In this document: piece after piece, positions 7,415 to 34,359 of the stretch
How positions within the stretch are numbered: position 1 is the first letter of the stretch
How the letters are laid out: every line of letters starts with the position of its first letter
DNA from: Acidobacteriota bacterium
Lineage (GTDB): Bacteria; Acidobacteriota; Terriglobia; Acidiferrales; UBA7541
DNA: 64,000 nucleotides
NCBI GenBank assembly: GCA_013289695.1
Contig: JABCZK010000012.1
Location: forward strand, 1 to 64,000
Direction of reading: 5' to 3'
Notes under the pieces: model-generated
The model's input: only the letters and a program-made list of their open reading frames with translations
Databases searched by the model: none
Told to the model about the DNA's origin: nothing
Position numbers and translations under genes: made by a program

Positions 7415-7801
7415 CTACTTCTTTTTCTTCGACGAGCCTTTTTCGCCGGAGGATTTCGACTCCCCAGATTTTGCGCCGCCGGATTTCGATTCACCGGTTT
7501 TCGCGTCGCTGGACTTCGAGTCCTGCGATTTTGCGTCCGAGGATTTAGAATCCGAGGACGAATCGCCAGATTTTCCTGAAGCGCCGTCGCCCGAGCCTTC
7601 CACGGACGAGACGCCGGAATTCTTGCCCTTGTAATCCGTTACGTACCAGCCCGAGCCTTTGAACTGAATTCCCGCCGCGGAAATCATCCGCTGGGCTTTT
7701 CCGCCGCATTTGGGGCACTTTTGCGTCGTCGGCGCATCATGCTTTTCGATTTTCTCGAATTGATGCGCGCACTTATCGCACTTGTATTCGTATAGCGGCA
7801 A
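7415..7801 (-). CDS. FmdB-family zinc ribbon protein with low-complexity tail
   Basis: 128 residues. The first 50 are a classic FmdB/CxxC zinc ribbon: PLYEYKCDKCAHQFE, CPKCGGKAQRM, FKGSGWYVTDY. The remaining 70 residues are almost only Ser, Lys, Asp, Gly, Ala and Glu in a loose repeat of the form SKSSDAK/SKSGGAK. This tail is much longer than in most family members. The start is TTG 7801, supported by GGGAGGAG upstream. The physiological role of FmdB-type ribbons is poorly known. Confidence 0.88.
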   Translation of the reverse strand: MPLYEYKCDKCAHQFEKIEKHDAPTTQKCPKCGGKAQRMISAAGIQFKGSGWYVTDYKGKNSGVSSVEGSGDGASGKSGDSSSDSKSSDAKSQDSKSSDAKTGESKSGGAKSGESKSSGEKGSSKKKK

Positions 7802-24708: not shown

Positions 24709-25299
24709 ATCTGGTCTTCCCCTTTGCGACCGGTTCCGCGCCCGCTCGCCCCCTGCGAGCCACTTCCCATGATCGCGTTGGAACGTCCGTAGCAGACCAA
24801 CGCAATGTGCTTGCCAGCTCGGGGGCCAATCTCGAAGTTGAGCCGAGAGAGCGACATCCGCCGCACCGCCCCCCTGGCGCGCGCGCGCGGGGCCCGCCTG
24901 CCACCGTGTAAATTTGCTGCGGTTTCGCCCTATTTTCCCCGGCGCACGCCAGTCCCCCAAGGATTCGGGCTATGCATCGAAGCCCGACCCGCGCGCCTAG
25001 CCGGGTAGGTAAAGCCCGTATCTTCGCCGCGCCTTCGTCCGTACAAATTGTCAGCAGATTGTCACATCCGTTTGGCGCGGGTAACCTCGCTTGCTACTAT
25101 TGCATCTGCTACATATGCGTTGAGGCATGATTTGAACTTTGCACGTTAATTACACGTCAAAAACTCGCTGCTCGGGTTGGCTCCTAGCAAGCGAAAGAAT
25201 TCGCCGGTGCGGTTAGGCCGGTTGGCTTTTCGGCCGAACAAAACACGGAGCTGAAAGCACAAATCGTCGTTCACACATCTCGTGCGAAGGGACAAGCCG
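24709..25299. other. 591-bp intergenic region
   Basis: This region lies between the divergent CsbD-like and protease genes. It is very GC-rich in the first 200 bp and less so from about 25040. CGGGCT (24966-24971) can pair with either of two AGCCCG copies (24981-24986 or 25013-25018). I find no supported gene or RNA here; regulatory sequence for either neighbour is likely. Confidence 0.5.
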
Positions 25300-27240
25300 A
25301 TGAAAAAGCATGCGCGTTTGGCAGGCATACTGTCCGTAGCCGGAGCCTTGGGGATGGCGGCGTGCGGCGGCGGGGGTGGGTCGAGCACTCCGATCACCGT
25401 AAGCGTTTCGGCAAACGCCAACAGCTTGGAAACGTTTCAGACCGTACAATTCACCGCCACCGTAACGGGCACGTCGAATACCGCCGTCACCTGGCAACTA
25501 AGCTGCACCGCCGCAGGTTCGGTTTGCGGCTCGCTCTCCGCCACCGGCTTGTATATCGCGCCGAATACCGTGCCGACCGTCGCAACCACGACGAGTACCG
25601 ACCCAGCGATGGTCACCGTCACCGCAATTTCGCAGGCCAGCGCTTCCGCTTCTCAGTCGGTGCAATTCCCGCAGGTCTTTTCGCTGAACCAACAAACGCT
25701 AACGGTGCCCGTGCAGCTCGGCTCCTCCGGATCGAACGTGGACGCTGATTGCTCCACCCCCGCACCCGGATTTTGCTTCGGCGGAACTTTGGGGTCATTG
25801 CTGACAAACAACGCTACTCCGCCTGCGCTGGTTATCCTGTCCAACAACCACGTCTTGGGTCTGAGCGACGGCGGGGCCGCCGGTCAAAACGTGACGCAAC
25901 CAGGCATTATCGAAACGAACTGCTCGACCAACGGAACGACCGTGGTCGCGAATGTAACGAACATTTTAAGCCTGCAGTCGCAACCCATTCCGACCTTTCC
26001 CGTGGACGTCACTACGGCCCAGATCATCAGCGGAAAGGTCGATCCCGACGACAATATTTTGGAATTGGGCGCTCTCAGCACTGTCAATGGAGTGCAGGTC
26101 CCGCAACCTGCTCCGCCTGCGGGCGGCTCGGGAATCACGTCGGCGGCGGGGAAACTATTGGCGAAAAGCGGGCGCACCACGGGCCTGACGTGCGCGAAGG
26201 TGGATTCCACAAACACGTCCATGATTGTCGTCGGGTATTCGATTGGCTGCGCAACTGGCACCTCCTTTAGCGTCACCTATCACGACGAGGTCGTCGTCGC
26301 AAACATGTCCAACGGCCAAAGCTTCATCGGCGATGGCGATTCCGGTTCGCTGGCCGTGGACGCGGCTACCGCGGAGCCTGTGGCTCTCATGTTCGCCGGC
26401 AGCGACACCGACGCGGTTGGAAATCCGGTTGCCGACGTCCTCAACGCGCTGCACGCCGGCACCGGACACACATACACGTTTGTCGGCGGCGCGCAACACG
26501 CGGTACCCGGATGCTCGCTGCCAGGCCTCAGCTCGGTAAAAGTGACGCCGCAATCCGCCGCCGCTCTTCCCGCCGGCGAGGCGCAGCGCGCCCAAACAGC
26601 TGGCATCAACAACAGCAGCCAAATCATCAATACGCCTGGCGTCTCGGCTTACGGCGGAGGCGGCAGCCTCGACGCGCCGCAAGAGCCGGCCGTGATGATC
26701 TTCCTCGCGCCCGGGGCATCGCATGCCGGCATTCCGCTCACGATTGACGGAGTGCGCACACGCCTCATCGAATCGAACTCCGCATCCGCGCGCGGCGCGT
26801 TGAGCCAGCAGCAAAGCGCGCAGCTCGCGTCGGAGTCAGCGCAGGCGCAAGCGATTGAAATCCCCGCCAGCGCCATCGAGCAAAGCAAAACCGTCAAAGA
26901 GCAGCACGTGACGGAACTGATGAGCGATCCGGCGGTAGTAGGCGTAGGCGTCAGCGCCAGTCTCGATAGCCCCGGCGATCCGGCATTGATGATCTACGTG
27001 CTGAAAGGCAAAGCGCACAACCCGATTCCCGCGAGCATAGACGGCGTGCGCACGCGCATCAAGGAAACCAGCCCGTTCCGCGCCAACGTCGCCCATCCGG
27101 CGAAGTCCACCACCGCGGCTGGCTGCCACGTGCCAAAAAGCGCCCCAGCGAACACGCTGAACGCCGCTCCCGCATCGCTGCAGCCGAGCGCGCCAAGCCC
27201 CAGCGTCCAACCAATCGCTCTTACAACCGTGCAGCGCTAG
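25300..27240 (+). CDS. secreted lipoprotein: Ig-like domain, trypsin-like protease, C-terminal repeats
   Basis: 646 residues from ATG 25300, with GAAGGGAC upstream. The signal peptide ends in a lipobox (GMAAC, Cys22). Residues 32-122 look like a bacterial Ig-like domain (VSVSANANSLETFQTVQFTA). Residues 135-400 form a chymotrypsin-fold protease with likely triad His184 (SNNHVLG), Asp236 (FPVDVTTA) and Ser348 (GDSGS). The C-terminal part has two copies of a module built around EPAVMIFL...GIPLTIDGVRTRLIE and DPALMIYV...PIPASIDGVRTRIKE. It is probably a cell-surface protease. The domain order is from my reading; the substrate is unknown. Confidence 0.75.
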   Translation: MKKHARLAGILSVAGALGMAACGGGGGSSTPITVSVSANANSLETFQTVQFTATVTGTSNTAVTWQLSCTAAGSVCGSLSATGLYIAPNTVPTVATTTSTDPAMVTVTAISQASASASQSVQFPQVFSLNQQTLTVPVQLGSSGSNVDADCSTPAPGFCFGGTLGSLLTNNATPPALVILSNNHVLGLSDGGAAGQNVTQPGIIETNCSTNGTTVVANVTNILSLQSQPIPTFPVDVTTAQIISGKVDPDDNILELGALSTVNGVQVPQPAPPAGGSGITSAAGKLLAKSGRTTGLTCAKVDSTNTSMIVVGYSIGCATGTSFSVTYHDEVVVANMSNGQSFIGDGDSGSLAVDAATAEPVALMFAGSDTDAVGNPVADVLNALHAGTGHTYTFVGGAQHAVPGCSLPGLSSVKVTPQSAAALPAGEAQRAQTAGINNSSQIINTPGVSAYGGGGSLDAPQEPAVMIFLAPGASHAGIPLTIDGVRTRLIESNSASARGALSQQQSAQLASESAQAQAIEIPASAIEQSKTVKEQHVTELMSDPAVVGVGVSASLDSPGDPALMIYVLKGKAHNPIPASIDGVRTRIKETSPFRANVAHPAKSTTAAGCHVPKSAPANTLNAAPASLQPSAPSPSVQPIALTTVQR

Positions 27241-29472: not shown

Positions 29473-30111
29473 GAGCTCTTCTCCCCACCGCGTCGGCTAC
29501 TGTGCCAGAGTGGCACAGCCCAGCCCCCGCTGCCACTTTTCTCTGCCCCACTGACGCCAAAAATTAACCGCCGGTTCCCATTCGCCCTGTTCCGCGCCTG
29601 AGAACCCGCGGACCGCGTTTCGCCTCGCGGCGTAGCCCGCTCGCCGCTGCTTCTGCGAACGAAGCGCGCGTAGCGCGATACTATTACTAAGGCGTAATTT
29701 CGTGTCATTTCGCCGAGATTCAGAACTTATACCTATGCCCTATAACAGGTGTTTTCGCTTTCTCACCGGCCGGCTCTTGGCTCTATCTTGGACCTGAGAT
29801 AACCTATGGTTGGCGCGGGGATTCCTTGCTACCGCTCCGTCGGCGGATTCTGGGGTTGCAAACTCTCTCATGTGTTCGCACCAATGTATTGCAGAAAAGG
29901 CAAACTGCTTCCAATTGGAAGCAAACCTTTGCATTTTCCATGCTTCTCTGTATTTTCGGTTCCCAAAGACGGAAAAAGCGAAGCCGCTGCGGACCTTCGC
30001 GCAGGTCTTGGGTAAATATTTGTTCACCTGATGATCAAGCGGGCGGGTAGCTTCATCCCCCTGCACCTTCGGACTGCCGGAACCGCTGAGTTCCGGAGAG
30101 AGGTCGCGCAA
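29473..30111. other. 639-bp intergenic region, AT-richer, with perfect palindrome
   Basis: This gap is divergent between the PilZ gene and the HTH/S24-like regulator. From about 29690 to 30020 its base composition is more AT-rich than its surroundings. It contains a perfect 16-base palindrome at 29907-29922 and a promoter-like pair just downstream. Open frames on both strands here are weak and overlap each other, so I do not call genes. Confidence 0.5.
29907..29922. promoter_or_regulatory. perfect 16-nt palindrome, candidate operator
   Basis: GCTTCCAATTGGAAGC is its own reverse complement. It sits directly upstream of TTGCAT (29929-29934) and TATTTT (29951-29956), which are 16 bases apart and could form a promoter. 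The next gene downstream encodes an HTH regulator, so autoregulation is possible. Confidence 0.4.
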
Positions 30112-30909
30112 ATGGAGCCAGTGACTCGTTCCGGTGACCAGCTTCGGGAGCTCCGTAGCCGTGTGGGCGTGACTACGCGGGCAGTGGAAGAACTGAGCAA
30201 GAAGATTGCCCTCGAGTCGGAAAACGACGAGTTCTACATCTCGAACGCCTGGCTGACGCAGATCGAGAACCGGAATTCCGTCCCCAGCATCTATAAATTA
30301 TTCAGTCTCAGCGTAATCTACCGCACCAAATTCACGGACCTGCTCGCCGCCTTTGGGGTGCTGTTGGATGAGACCGTGCGCTATCAAATGTTCACGCCGC
30401 TGCAGAATACCCACCTCGCCACACTCGAGGCTCCCGCTAACGGCACGGTCATGAACTTCCCGGTGCGTTTTGACCGCGGCTTCAGCCTGGAAAAGACCAA
30501 CCTGCTTTCGCGCATGGTCGAGCTGTGGGGCGAAATTCCGATTTCGTTCCTTCAGAAGCTGGACTTGCGCCACTGCCAGTATGGATATATTGGCACGGAC
30601 GATTGTTCGATGTATCCGCTGCTCCGCCCCGGCTCGTTCGTGCAGATCGACAGCCACATGAGCCGCACGCACCCCTCAAGCTGGCGCACCGAATTTGATC
30701 GGCCGATTTACTTCATCGAATTGCGCGATAGTTATGCATGTTCGTGGGTCGAATTGCGAGGTTCGGAGCTAACCTTGGTTCCCCATCCGCTTTCCGGCTC
30801 GGCTATCCGGCAATTCCCTTGCCCGGATGAGGCCGAGATTATTGGACAGGTGACAGGTGTCGCGATGCGCCTGGTTTCATCCGACCCATCAGACGTGCCT
30901 CCAAAATAG
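30112..30909 (+). CDS. HTH (XRE-like) regulator with S24/LexA-like C-terminal domain
   Basis: 265 residues from ATG 30112, preceded by GGAGAGAGG. An N-terminal helix-turn-helix (about residues 5-70, SNAWLTQIENRNSVPSIYKL) is followed by a linker. A C-terminal domain resembles the S24 peptidase fold. CSMYPLLRPGSFVQID matches the catalytic-Ser segment (Ser166). The segment that normally carries the catalytic Lys reads WVELRG, with Glu214 in its place by my alignment. This suggests a sensor that does not cleave itself. The last 71 bases overlap the 3' end of the opposing gene. Confidence 0.7.
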   Translation: MEPVTRSGDQLRELRSRVGVTTRAVEELSKKIALESENDEFYISNAWLTQIENRNSVPSIYKLFSLSVIYRTKFTDLLAAFGVLLDETVRYQMFTPLQNTHLATLEAPANGTVMNFPVRFDRGFSLEKTNLLSRMVELWGEIPISFLQKLDLRHCQYGYIGTDDCSMYPLLRPGSFVQIDSHMSRTHPSSWRTEFDRPIYFIELRDSYACSWVELRGSELTLVPHPLSGSAIRQFPCPDEAEIIGQVTGVAMRLVSSDPSDVPPK

Positions 30910-31315
30910 CGAGGGCCACCTTCAGGTTGGAAAAAACAAGTTCGCTCGATAACGAATCGATTCCCACCGGAACAGCCACGCGATATGGTTCCAGTCCCTT
31001 CCAAGCGACGATGAAATCGCTGGGCGCGACGCGCGTGCTCTCCAGGTAGGCTTCCAGTTCGTGCACTAATTCTTCCAGCGATGCGCCCACCAACTCGTCG
31101 AACGCCTCGCGGTGGCAATCCGCCAGCGCTTCGCACGCGGCCTCCTCCGAAAAACGCAGTGCTAGCCCGTGGTGATAATACAAACCGGTGTTGTAGTCGC
31201 GCGTCGAAGCCAGATAGATCAATCGCTCCAGAGGCTGGGTCATATCCACCAGCGTGCGGCGGCGCAAATCGTCCGCGGCCGCCAGCACATCCACATTTTT
31301 GGCTGGGGTGCCCAT
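30839..31315 (-). CDS. soluble protein of unknown function, last gene of three-gene operon
   Basis: 158 residues, mainly helical and mildly acidic, without signal or TM segments. It includes MTQPLERLIYLASTRDYNTG, YYHHGLALRFSEEAACEALA and a C-terminal DSLSSELVFSNLKVALAILEARL. I recognise no family. It starts 3 bp after the stop of the upstream membrane-protein gene. Its last 71 bases are antisense to the end of the HTH/S24-like gene, an unusual tail-to-tail overlap. Confidence 0.65.
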   Translation of the reverse strand: MGTPAKNVDVLAAADDLRRRTLVDMTQPLERLIYLASTRDYNTGLYYHHGLALRFSEEAACEALADCHREAFDELVGASLEELVHELEAYLESTRVAPSDFIVAWKGLEPYRVAVPVGIDSLSSELVFSNLKVALAILEARLMGRMKPGASRHLSPVQ

Positions 31316-31318
31316 AGG

Positions 31319-31903
31319 CTAAATCGCCGCTCCGTTGCCAGCCGAACTGCGGCGGAACGATTCCAGCGCAGGCGGATTCAGAAACGCCAGTGATTTTTCC
31401 GAGGCCGCGCACACGCGTCCCGCGGCCGCCGTCAGCACTACCACCACGGCTCCCGCGCCGTGAGGTCCGCGCATATACAAAAGAATCCGCAACGCGCGGC
31501 ACGCCAGCAGCAACAAGCCAAAGTCCAGAGCCAGGCGGATTTCCGTCAGCAGGCTCAGCTTCGCGTGCAAACGCGAATATCCCAGATGGAACTGCATCAG
31601 ATTGCGAATTTCGCAGCGCACCCGGCGCACCCACATCAGCGAAATCCTCTTGCGCTCCTGCAAAAACAATTCCCCGATATTCGCGGGGCTCGCCGCCATC
31701 GCGTAGCGAAAATCCTCGCGGTCAAATAATCGTTCGATCAGGTTTTCCGGCAGCAATCCCAATTGCAGCGTGCGCAGCGCCTGCCGCGCCTCCACGAACT
31801 GCCGCCCGCATCCTTCGACCGGCGCGCCTTTCCGCCTCGCCAGCAGCCACAGGAAAACCAGCAGGCCGACGCCCACCAATAGATAGAACAGCAGGCTGAT
31901 CAT
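31319..31903 (-). CDS. membrane-anchored protein of unknown function, middle gene of operon
   Basis: 194 residues from ATG 31903, which overlaps the upstream stop by 4 bases (ATGA). The N-terminus is a TM helix (LLFYLLVGVGLLVFLWLLA) followed by a basic stop-transfer RRKG. The middle is cytosolic and helical (QALRTLQLGLLPENLIERLF, FLQERKRISLMWVRRVRCEI). A second hydrophobic region lies around residues 120-165. I recognise no family. Confidence 0.65.
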   Translation of the reverse strand: MISLLFYLLVGVGLLVFLWLLARRKGAPVEGCGRQFVEARQALRTLQLGLLPENLIERLFDREDFRYAMAASPANIGELFLQERKRISLMWVRRVRCEIRNLMQFHLGYSRLHAKLSLLTEIRLALDFGLLLLACRALRILLYMRGPHGAGAVVVVLTAAAGRVCAASEKSLAFLNPPALESFRRSSAGNGAAI

Positions 31904-32658
31904 GAGCCGGCCACCCCGCGCAAATTGGAGCGCACCGATTCCAATTGCGTCCGCGTGCCGCGAACCAGCGCGTCGTATCCCCCGTTGCCCCGCCCCGTGG
32001 TGGGCGGAGCCGGGTTCGGGCTGTAAGACCATAACGCGACCGTCCACACGATCAGTGCAAAGAAATATGACGCCGTCTGCAAATCGCCCCACGCGGCGTT
32101 GAAACGTGGCCCAAGGAACGAGCGCAGAGCGAGCGTCGTCAAACTCACACCCACATACGCGCCGAATCCCACGATCATGCCGGTCACGTTCTTGCCAATC
32201 TCGATGCGATAGTAAAAAACGATGGCTAGAACCGTGGCCAGCACCAGCGCTTCAATCACCCGCAGATCCCGCTCCAGTTCCACCGTCGCGGCCACCGTGG
32301 ACCACTCAGTGCGACTCGCCACATGCCATTCCACATAACAGAATGTCACTGCAAATACCGCGCAGCTTGCCCGCCACGCAAAACGCTCCGCTCCGGGGTA
32401 GGCGGCCAGCGCTTGACGCACGACTTCCAGCACGACGCCGAAGCCTATCGCCAGCGTGGCAAACTGTGTCGGCCAGTACCACGCTTCATAAAATTCCAGG
32501 TTCGAGTGCCCGATGAACAGCCCCACGGACACGACGAACACGCAGGAAATGTAAGCGTAAAAATAGATGTACTTGGTGAACGTCTTGGTCTGAACGGAAC
32601 GCGCCAGCAGCGCGAACTCGAGCAACAAGCCGGCGGGCCACAGCAGTAAACTTAACAT
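31900..32658 (-). CDS. multi-TM membrane protein of unknown function, first gene of operon
   Basis: 252 residues from ATG 32658; a GTG at 32685 would add nine. About seven hydrophobic helices span residues 2-220 (LLLWPAGLLLEFALLA, IYFYAYISCVFVVSVGLFIG, ALVLATVLAIVFYYRI, YFFALIVWTVALWSY). The last 40 residues are soluble. I recognise no family. It heads the three-gene operon and lies 116 bp downstream of the GTQPPVPPK-repeat gene in the same orientation. An extended -10-like TGCTACGAT lies at about 32680-32690. Confidence 0.65.
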   Translation of the reverse strand: MLSLLLWPAGLLLEFALLARSVQTKTFTKYIYFYAYISCVFVVSVGLFIGHSNLEFYEAWYWPTQFATLAIGFGVVLEVVRQALAAYPGAERFAWRASCAVFAVTFCYVEWHVASRTEWSTVAATVELERDLRVIEALVLATVLAIVFYYRIEIGKNVTGMIVGFGAYVGVSLTTLALRSFLGPRFNAAWGDLQTASYFFALIVWTVALWSYSPNPAPPTTGRGNGGYDALVRGTRTQLESVRSNLRGVAGS

Positions 32659-32774
32659 GTCCGTCACTGGCGCAAATCGTAGCACAAATCTACAGGGAGA
32701 ATTACAGCTTTCTCTCCCCGCCAGCGCGTTCCGCTCGACCGTTTAGCTCGCCGTCACAGCATGGAACCCGCTCT

Positions 32775-33131
32775 TCACACTGCCGCTTCCAGCGCCTCGG
32801 GTGGCACCGGGGGCTGCGTGCCATCGAACATCCGAGCGACCGCTCCCGTCATCTTCGGAGGAACCGGTGGTTGCGTGCCATCGAGAAATACAGCCTTCGG
32901 CGGGACCGGCGGCTGCGTGCCATCCAGCATCCGCACAAACACATCCACCGCTTTGGGCGGCACAGGTGGCTGCGTGCCATCTAGGAACGCGGCCTTAGGG
33001 GGAACTGGGGGTTGCGTGCCAGCAAACATGGCAGTCAAGGTGTTGTGCGACCGCGCTTTGCCTGGGGCCGCCATCGCCACCAAACCGAAAACCACAAACA
33101 TAAGCACGACTGCTCTAGCTGTCCGGTTCAT
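32775..33131 (-). CDS. small exported protein with five GTQPPVPPK repeats
   Basis: 118 residues. It has a signal peptide (MNRTARAVVLMFVVFGLVAM, then AAPGKARS). The mature part is mainly five copies of GTQPPVPPK at residues 38-46, 52-60, 71-79, 85-93 and 104-112 (the last ends in Glu). Four are preceded by Asp and a hydrophobic spacer (AAFLD, RMLD, AVFLD, RMFD). AGGAGA stands seven bases before the ATG, which supports this strand. Function is unknown. Options are a periplasmic Pro-rich protein, a binding ligand for SH3-like domains, or a precursor with repeated core peptides; none is shown by sequence. Confidence 0.7.
   Translation of the reverse strand: MNRTARAVVLMFVVFGLVAMAAPGKARSHNTLTAMFAGTQPPVPPKAAFLDGTQPPVPPKAVDVFVRMLDGTQPPVPPKAVFLDGTQPPVPPKMTGAVARMFDGTQPPVPPEALEAAV
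32796..33020 (-). repeat. five in-frame repeats inside the exported protein gene
   Basis: Five related 27-30-base units, irregularly spaced by about 15-30 bases, encode GTQPPVPPK/E on the minus strand. Base differences between copies fall at third codon positions. On the opposite strand they read GGTGGCVPS with wobble positions coinciding, so synonymous variation alone does not identify the coding strand. Confidence 0.85.
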
Positions 33132-33477
33132 CGGGGTCTCCTGTTTTTTTCGTCTTGGCGCGTTTAAGCGCGCTGCGACGGTACAGGGCTCGAGCTCGTC
33201 ACACGTCGCGAGGCAGGAATTGCTTGGAATTCAAAGCAGGAATCGCGGCAACGCGCGAATCAGGCGGGAAACACATGGACAGCGAAGAGCGGGCAACGGT
33301 TCGTCACGTCCACGACGGGATCGCATGGCCCGTAATTACTGCGGACCAACCTCGGGATATTACTCTCGTTACTAGGACATTATGCCGTTACCACAATGGA
33401 ACCCCTGCGGCATATACGCATATCCCTGCTCTCGCCGCTCTGGCATCCTGTGTCGAGTGGTTTGCCAGCGAGGACCT
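33132..33477. other. 346-bp divergent intergenic region
   Basis: This lies between the repeat-protein gene (minus) and the diguanylate cyclase gene (plus). It should hold promoters for both. An open plus frame from 33155 to 33565 crosses it but lacks a ribosome site and any protein-like pattern, and it runs into the cyclase gene. I see no RNA gene. Confidence 0.5.
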
Positions 33478-34359
33478 ATGCCGGAGATTCATGCTCACAG
33501 CTCGGCGCCGACGGACCGGCCGGCCGCTCCGCATTTCGAGCCGGAACAAATCCGCGAGCACTTGAATCACCTGGACCGCCGCCAATGGTGGCTGTGGTCA
33601 TCTACGGTCGCCGTGCTCTTGTTGCTCACCCTGGCCGTGGCATCCTTTGCGTTCCCCGCGATGCTCAGCCACGAAGAATCTTCCTATTCCTTCTACTTGA
33701 ATCAGGCGGTCCGTGCGCTGGTGGGACTCGTTCTGGTGTTCAGCGTGTATTTGATCTATCAGCAGGTTCAGCTAACGCGCCTCCGTCACGAAGTGGCTGA
33801 CCAAATGCAATCCCTGATCAAGGTGGAAACTCTGGCATCAGAGGTTTACAAGCTCGCGGCTCTCGATCAGCTCACCGGGCTTTACAATCGGCGTTCCGGC
33901 GAACAGCGCCTGGCTCAGGAAATCAGCCGCGCGCAACGCCACGGCCGGCCGCTCACAGTTCTCCTGATGGATCTCGACGGACTGAAACAGGTTAACGACC
34001 GGCACGGCCACGCCGCCGGCGATGCCGTGCTGAAGGGCTTCGCAGATCGCCTGCAACGCGCCATTCGCGGTTCCGATCTGGCCGTGCGCCTGGGCGGCGA
34101 TGAGTTCATGGCTCTGCTTCCGGAATGCCGCGCCGAAGAGGTCCGGCACGTCTTGGCCCGCCTGGAAGGCCTCGAGTTCGAATTCGACGATCAAAAGCTG
34201 CGCCTGCAGTATTCCCGCGGCTGGACCGACTACGCCCCTGGCGAAACGCCGCAAGAACTCTTGAAACGCGCCGATCAGGCTCTCTATGAGGACAAACGCG
34301 CCGGAAAACGCAGGGTCGTGGGGCCGCTCGAGACTCCGGTAGCGCAGCCCTCGATATAA
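33478..34359 (+). CDS. membrane-bound GGDEF diguanylate cyclase
   Basis: 293 residues from ATG 33478, with GAGGACCT upstream. Two TM helices lie at about residues 42-62 and 74-98, followed by a short signalling helix. The GGDEF domain covers about 120-282: DQLTGLYNRRSGEQRL, LLMDLDGLKQVNDRHGHAAGD, and the active-site GGDEF at 206-210. An RxxD inhibitory site (RGSD, 197-200) stands five residues upstream, so product inhibition is expected. It makes cyclic di-GMP. No periplasmic sensor domain of significant size is seen between the TM helices. Confidence 0.92.
   Translation: MPEIHAHSSAPTDRPAAPHFEPEQIREHLNHLDRRQWWLWSSTVAVLLLLTLAVASFAFPAMLSHEESSYSFYLNQAVRALVGLVLVFSVYLIYQQVQLTRLRHEVADQMQSLIKVETLASEVYKLAALDQLTGLYNRRSGEQRLAQEISRAQRHGRPLTVLLMDLDGLKQVNDRHGHAAGDAVLKGFADRLQRAIRGSDLAVRLGGDEFMALLPECRAEEVRHVLARLEGLEFEFDDQKLRLQYSRGWTDYAPGETPQELLKRADQALYEDKRAGKRRVVGPLETPVAQPSI

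Follow-up and report, generated by a model that had tools for sequence, protein, structure and literature searches.

In Agr-type and other peptide/histidine-kinase systems, a variable peptide covaries with a membrane protein, as it does at the locus reported here, while in plants the CLE and CEP peptides, which are short, Pro-rich and sometimes present in multiple copies, are cut from secreted precursors and have receptor kinases as their counterparts, and the ascomycete alpha-pheromone has a seven-helix partner, Ste2. Passages of a study on fungal alpha-pheromone precursors and KEX2-processed repeat proteins give the peptide as 9-24 residues long and present in one to many copies (PMC6339444), and for the RRNPP(A) systems of Bacillota tandemly duplicated propeptides, with several pheromones each, are documented in parts of two further papers (PMC11343458; PMC10075063). 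As regards quorum sensing in Acidobacteria, the relevant passages of a review name only acyl-homoserine lactones (PMC7661733).

The locus reported here lies in the window, i.e., the whole 64,000-nt stretch of acidobacterial DNA that was analyzed, and comprises a predicted exported multi-copy peptide precursor directly upstream of genes for unnamed membrane proteins (mem, then mem2), which is the arrangement that an earlier note on this DNA had described. The precursors seen here and those of the fungal alpha-pheromone/KEP type are alike in being exported (here by prediction) and in varying in both copy number and sequence between species, as passages of the fungal study have it (PMC6339444). 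The two marks of the fungal precursors, a signal peptide (read here from hydropathy) and repeats, are both found in the window protein, and 22 of the 62 precursors found beside mem are listed as multi-copy; the dibasic sites of KEX2, however, have no counterpart, there being no KK, KR, RK or RR between the units of the window protein. The likeness to alpha-factor/Ste2 extends to mem, also a seven-helix protein, as the proposed partner, whereas no sequence relation was found and the proposed receptor is here adjacent in the same gene run. RRNPP(A) systems resemble the locus in that a small propeptide gene, Sec-exported (here by prediction), adjoins a gene that codes for roughly 250 aa or more: their propeptides have 10-100 aa, compared with a median of 65 aa here and 118 aa in the window (export being judged by hydropathy), and their receptors have 250-500 aa with TPRs, whereas mem, adjacent and 252 aa long, falls into no Pfam family, and no TPR was found by Pfam in mem2, p158 or the HTH protein. 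Furthermore, the proposed receptor here is a membrane protein, and the phylum is Acidobacteriota instead of Bacillota. Phr/Rap follows the same logic as the proposed precursor/mem pair and is unrelated by sequence, and as for the Agr type, the precursor here differs in its signal-peptide-like N-terminus, and neither a membrane histidine kinase nor an AgrB-like Pfam family was found in the precursor, mem, mem2, p158, the HTH protein or the GGDEF protein.

Results

The precursor ORF and its gene neighborhood

The precursor ORF with its five-unit array is confirmed as real (Table 1). The earlier note had read it as five copies of GTQPPVPPK, which holds for copies 1-4 at the residues given, whereas copy 5 ends in E instead of K; the short segments between the units are variable, and D precedes four of the five units, the first being preceded by A. 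The N-terminus, MNRTARAVVLMFVVFGLVAMAAPGKARS, is of the export type by a hydropathy reading, and the ATG is preceded by AACAGGAGACCCCG, with AGGAG at a distance of 6 nt, in keeping with the signal peptide and the good ribosome site that the earlier note gave for the 118-aa protein. Pfam gave only sub-threshold matches for the precursor (E 0.04 and 0.12), and NCBIfam gave none. The array is absent from the Tandem Repeats Finder list for the window, presumably because codons and spacers differ between copies; the sole array in that list is a 30-bp tandem repeat of 3.8 copies at 7439-7553. Elsewhere in the window, a 652-aa ORF (25282-27240, +) has a lipoprotein-like N-terminus and, in its C-terminal half, a duplicated motif (PAVMIFLAPG...IDGVRTRLIE / PALMIYVLKG...IDGVRTRIKE).

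Table 1. Features of the precursor locus and its surroundings in the window.
Feature	Coordinates	Strand	Remark
Probable HTH regulator	30031..30909	+	HTH_31 E 2.9e-4, below Pfam cut-off
p158, 158-aa all-helical protein, linked to mem	30839..31315	-	
mem2, 194-aa membrane protein (helices by eye)	31319..31903	-	start overlaps mem stop (ATGA)
mem, 252 aa, seven-helix membrane protein with C-terminal helix, candidate receptor	31900..32658	-	start set at M10 of 261-aa ORF
Hairpin GGGGAGAGAAAGCTGTAATTCTCCC between precursor and mem	32695..32719	-	by eye, same place as in relatives
Exported multi-copy peptide precursor (predicted), 118 aa, five GTQPPVPP[K/E] units	32775..33131	-	ATG start
Unit 5, GTQPPVPPE, residues 104-112	32796..32822	-	
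Unit 4, GTQPPVPPK, residues 85-93	32853..32879	-	
Unit 3, GTQPPVPPK, residues 71-79	32895..32921	-	
Unit 2, GTQPPVPPK, residues 52-60	32952..32978	-	
Unit 1, GTQPPVPPK, residues 38-46	32994..33020	-	
Ribosome-binding site AGGAG, 6 nt before precursor ATG	33138..33142	-	upstream sequence
Divergent GGDEF protein, two hydrophobic segments	33382..34359	+	probable start M33, ~33478

The HTH gene, whose true start is probably further in than that of the ORF listed, is convergent to p158, with the 3' ends overlapping. Of the best 30 mem loci (L033-L062), all 30 had a match for mem2, 29 for p158 and 29 for the HTH protein; more distant mem homologues, some of them in the same family (e.g., L132, L139, L140 and L153-L156), have the HTH gene and p158 upstream instead, and at L127-L131 neither is found near mem. 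Among 349 genomes of the class, mem was found in 120 (E 1e-10), p158 in 182 and both in 114, which means that p158 is present in 114/120 of the mem-positive genomes, and, at the thresholds used, occurs without mem in 68/349, all these counts ignoring phylogeny. The window genome has a second p158-like match, and p158 may therefore serve more than one locus.

The GGDEF gene adjoins the precursor at 10 of the 13 window-genus loci with 1.4 kb of upstream sequence (it is missing there in L043, L063 and L065) and was not seen in this position in the remaining genera examined, so it was rejected as a core part. No Pfam or NCBIfam family was found for mem2, the p158 fold had no PDB match (best E 0.83), and PADLOC recognized no defence family among the six module proteins. 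An S24/LexA-like C-terminal domain, read by eye in the HTH protein, was likewise dropped, since the Pfam and PDB profiles give a weak HTH only.

Relatives of the precursor and their pairing with mem

When 60 other genomes were searched with the precursor protein, two clear relatives emerged, both from the window genus and with the same gene order, one having five DGTQPPLPPTK-like units and the other six EDGTQPVPPPIIPPH-like units; homologues with conserved repeats, whose absence the earlier note had named as fatal to its reading, were thus looked for and found. A contig scan using the precursor protein alone confirmed no homologue, and a weak match in the window's own genome (L002) was discarded, as the ORFs listed there include no such protein. 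That the precursor alone finds so few homologues is due to the divergence of the units, a problem that was solved by searching via the neighboring mem, which is present in 73/89 genomes and 9/13 genera of the family (E 0.001), in several copies in some genomes (five matches in G080).

Loci for upstream reading were chosen down the mem score list, precursors were sought only in the DNA beside mem, and the criteria of the pairing screen were fixed after the upstream regions of the first loci had been inspected. The 125 mem loci came down to 90 unique by sequence, 78 of which have at least 600 nt upstream and make up the screened set; at loci offering two candidate ORFs, only the ORF containing more Pro was taken. 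A small exported (by prediction) Pro-rich ORF ending near mem, upstream of it, was found at 62 of these 78 Terriglobia loci, and at 47/51 of those with a mem HMM score of at least 140. The remaining 16/78, 12 of which have mem scores of 120-150, were without a precursor in this strict screen, and when 15 of them were inspected again under looser criteria, L080 and L148 alone proved to have clear precursors. The twelve precursor-less homologues scoring ~120-150 (L127-L133, L137-L140 and L155) are possibly orphan receptors or proteins of a different function. Outside the class, a precursor was found at 0/10 mem loci, so that the association is, as far as seen, one of Terriglobia.

The 62 precursors have a median length of 65 aa, the shortest being 40 aa, and all of them have at least three Pro after residue 22; DG with P within 0-2 residues occurs in 47/62. 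Copy number at related loci ranges from one to six per precursor, with 40/62 falling outside the 22 that are listed as multi-copy; many of these 40 hold a single C-terminal unit in a protein of 40-71 aa. The units are near-uniform inside one precursor and different between genomes: those of the window genus are DGTQPPVPPK, DGPMRPHV, DGPEMPPPG, DVPNPGPH, QGTRPMPPPPGGG, DITNPPPA, DISNPPYPPA and DGTQPPVEPPPW, and those found elsewhere include ADGGDPVPPWPKPL, ADGTEPPPPPIPW and ADGGAPVPPPIPIPW. Further families in the class have short single-copy precursors, some with Cys; in one family (f11, L141-L152) the peptides are very short, often with a Cys near the C-terminus (e.g., DGDQPPLCRPGAPTCK and DGSEIPPMCFPCGR), for which a disulfide or cyclic form would be possible judging by sequence.

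Selection on the unit and choice of strand

Over the ten pairs of window copies, the units show 50 synonymous differences in 76.7 sites (pS 0.65) and four non-synonymous ones in 193.3 sites (pN 0.021), and such heavy synonymous but scarce protein-level divergence argues that selection acts on the peptide; the same figures rule out that the array arose by chance or through recent duplication of DNA, the copies being old at the DNA level. Pooling the 22 multi-copy precursors gave a pS of 0.488 and a pN of 0.012, the latter biased low by pattern-matched unit choice, which omitted units failing the pattern (e.g., one diverged copy in L062). Among the single-copy precursors L058/L064/L065/L088, pN/pS was 0.04 for the C-terminal part vs. 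0.48 for the leader, whereas in L095/L097/L101 the C-terminal part changed faster than the leader (0.87 vs. 0.29), which is the pattern expected from a change of signal type.

The plus strand of the precursor span contains a stop. An antisense ORF (32761-33375, +, 204 aa) with GGTGGCVPS repeats mirrors the units and varies at the same sites, and since its frame seems conserved too within the window (pS 0.59, pN 0.053), codons alone cannot settle the strand. What decides against coding on the opposite strand is the set of relatives, where it is the strand of the downstream gene that carries the export-type ORF: such an ORF was found in the sense direction at 62/78 mem loci and antisense at 1/78, or, for an equal stretch of 660 nt on each strand, at 60/78 and 1/78, respectively. 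Transcription of the opposite strand, which the earlier note had seen as the other way in which it could fail, is thus not what the relatives indicate.

mem as a candidate receptor

Neither a Pfam nor an NCBIfam family was found for mem, nor any PDB sequence match at E<=1, and the structure model (built on 7 sequences, pLDDT 77), with its seven long helices and a C-terminal helix, had no Foldseek match at E<=0.001, so homology to the GPCR superfamily (seven TM, N-out/C-in) was not found. The Foldseek list for mem is nevertheless headed by GPCRs (NTSR1, 9m0d, E 0.021, probability 1.00, TM 0.45; GPR158, 7ewl, TM 0.56), with microbial rhodopsins lower down, a likeness that in the model would be one of the seven-helix bundle rather than of descent, as any seven-helix bundle might find GPCRs. 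The orientation of mem comes from the K+R bias only, the share of these residues under the assumed N-out topology being 6.3% outside, 8.6% inside and 15.5% in the tail. With N-out again assumed, columns on the predicted outer side are more variable than those on the inner side (2.20 vs. 1.59 bits, p 5e-7), and the inner loops are conserved. Since no Cys, His or Ser of mem is invariant, a protease is not suggested, and no output domain was found in the protein.

Covariation of the peptide and mem

Within the genus (14 loci, 10 for GGDEF), mean identity is 0.42 for mem, the fastest-changing of the five neighbors, 0.53 for mem2, 0.64 for p158 and 0.74 for both the HTH and GGDEF proteins. The units have a mean identity of 0.41, close to that of mem and above the 0.31 of shuffled units, so “hypervariable” is a relative term here, and the units are variable, not random. 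For the same 14 loci, the unit correlates with mem (r 0.32, p 0.006, phylogeny ignored) and does so given p158 (r 0.35, p 0.009), as opposed to an r of -0.19 for unit and p158 given mem; conditioned on mem2, the correlation of unit and mem falls short of significance (r 0.15, p 0.16).

The wider set comprises 46 loci, 31 of which entered the p158-conditioned test (a p158 match in the flank being needed) and 42 the mem2-conditioned one. With phylogeny ignored throughout, the mature part correlated with mem given p158 at r 0.49 (31 loci, p 0.0005), and given mem2 or the leader at r 0.35 and 0.36 (42 loci, each p 0.0005); mature part and mem2 given mem had an r of -0.05 (42 loci). Leaders, however, covary with mem too (simple r 0.72 vs. 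0.64 for the mature part; 0.28 given p158), which makes part of the covariation a matter of shared ancestry or linkage.

Hairpin between the precursor and mem

At 30/62 loci, the gap between the precursor and mem contains a terminator-like hairpin with a T-rich stretch behind it, compared with 4.2 expected from shuffles, the stem sequences differing from locus to locus. The window hairpin went unlisted by both scans because its T tract is weak. These hairpins fit a single promoter that yields an excess of peptide over receptor; a sigma-70 promoter scan found nothing in the window.

Discussion

An export-type ORF, purifying selection at the level of the unit, unit turnover, and both pairing and covariation with mem were computed here, and for export, near-uniform repeats, genome-to-genome turnover and the linkage and covariation with mem taken together, a signal-receptor pair is the simplest account. 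Judging by sequence, it is somewhat more likely than not that the ORF encodes a precursor from which a signal peptide is released by secretion, mem being the proposed receptor. The signal peptide suggests that the precursor would be exported via Sec, and the repeats, spacers and single-copy relatives that it would be cleaved, either periplasmically or outside the cell, to give multiple copies of a short peptide, rich in Pro, around DGTQPPVPPK, the high copy number raising the peptide yield per transcript. The peptide would then be recognized from outside by mem, as linkage, covariation and the variability of the outer face suggest, and mem would relay its state into the cell, probably together with mem2 and p158, the neighboring HTH protein being the likely output regulator, all by linkage; on the same ground, a cyclic-di-GMP branch may come in through the divergent GGDEF protein in the window genus. 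A terminator between the precursor and mem, if leaky, would keep the ligand in excess over the receptor, as the hairpins in relatives suggest. In a diderm cell, the peptide must also cross the outer membrane, which counts against reading it as a signal.

In a second reading, the peptide would stay with the same cell as a periplasmic partner of mem, either a modulator or a sensed envelope probe, since neither linkage nor covariation with mem requires release, and the Cys found after residue 22 in 21/62 precursors, some of them paired, could be redox-sensed. Near-uniform arrays and turnover between genomes, however, are easier to reconcile with a ligand that is released than with a fixed subunit, and the hairpins suggest an excess of peptide, so we regard such a partner as unlikely. 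A narrow-spectrum antimicrobial of the bacteriocin or proline-rich type, for which mem would be the immunity protein or the target, appears more doubtful still. It is true that a small, variable, exported peptide adjoins a membrane protein here and that insects make multi-copy precursors of Pro-rich antimicrobials (apidaecin), but known Pro-rich antimicrobials are cationic, whereas 17 of the 22 listed unit types are net negative, four neutral and one positive; the wide occurrence of mem in the family, its conserved inner loops and its p158/HTH neighborhood also speak against it.

Repeats and a high Pro content are, of course, what a structural, adhesive or wall-binding protein would have, and the earlier note had left the choice between ligand arrays, adhesive or wall proteins and precursors cut into small peptides. 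The precursor of a small ligand is the one now favored and the wall protein the one disfavored, because one C-terminal unit in 40-71 aa, as in many of the 40/62 precursors off the multi-copy list, would not suffice to build a wall protein of repeats (the shortest, of 40 aa, may have 20 residues left after the signal peptide) and the unit differs widely among species of one genus while mem is kept, all of which makes a structural role very improbable. Hardly more credible is a regulatory leader in which Pro stalling and the downstream hairpin control mem expression, with PPP in the mature part of 37/62 precursors and the hairpin after nearly half of the ORFs in its favor, as there is no PPP in the window units or in 8/22 unit types, and stalling needs neither export signals nor uniformity of the units at the protein level.

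Returning to the signal-receptor pair, none of the families searched matched the precursor, mem, mem2 or p158, and no description of this precursor/mem family was found in the open-access literature searched, although the signaling logic itself has precedents. The broadest form of this reading, in which a native pheromone system of Acidobacteriota would have a stand-alone seven-helix, GPCR-like membrane protein, with neither kinase nor TPR, directly recognizing multi-copy, species-specific Pro-rich peptides set free from an exported precursor, as a bacterial counterpart of alpha-factor/Ste2 and with several orthogonal pairs in some genomes, is a tentative one, which we hold to be conceivable and somewhat doubtful. 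Were it true, this large and poorly understood phylum would have a peptide language of its own, whose ligand sequences would be readable straight from genomes, making synthetic peptides testable at once. Bacterial peptide signaling would, moreover, gain a new receptor class, that of a stand-alone seven-helix protein, along with many naturally occurring ligand-receptor pairs on which specificity and coevolution could be studied.
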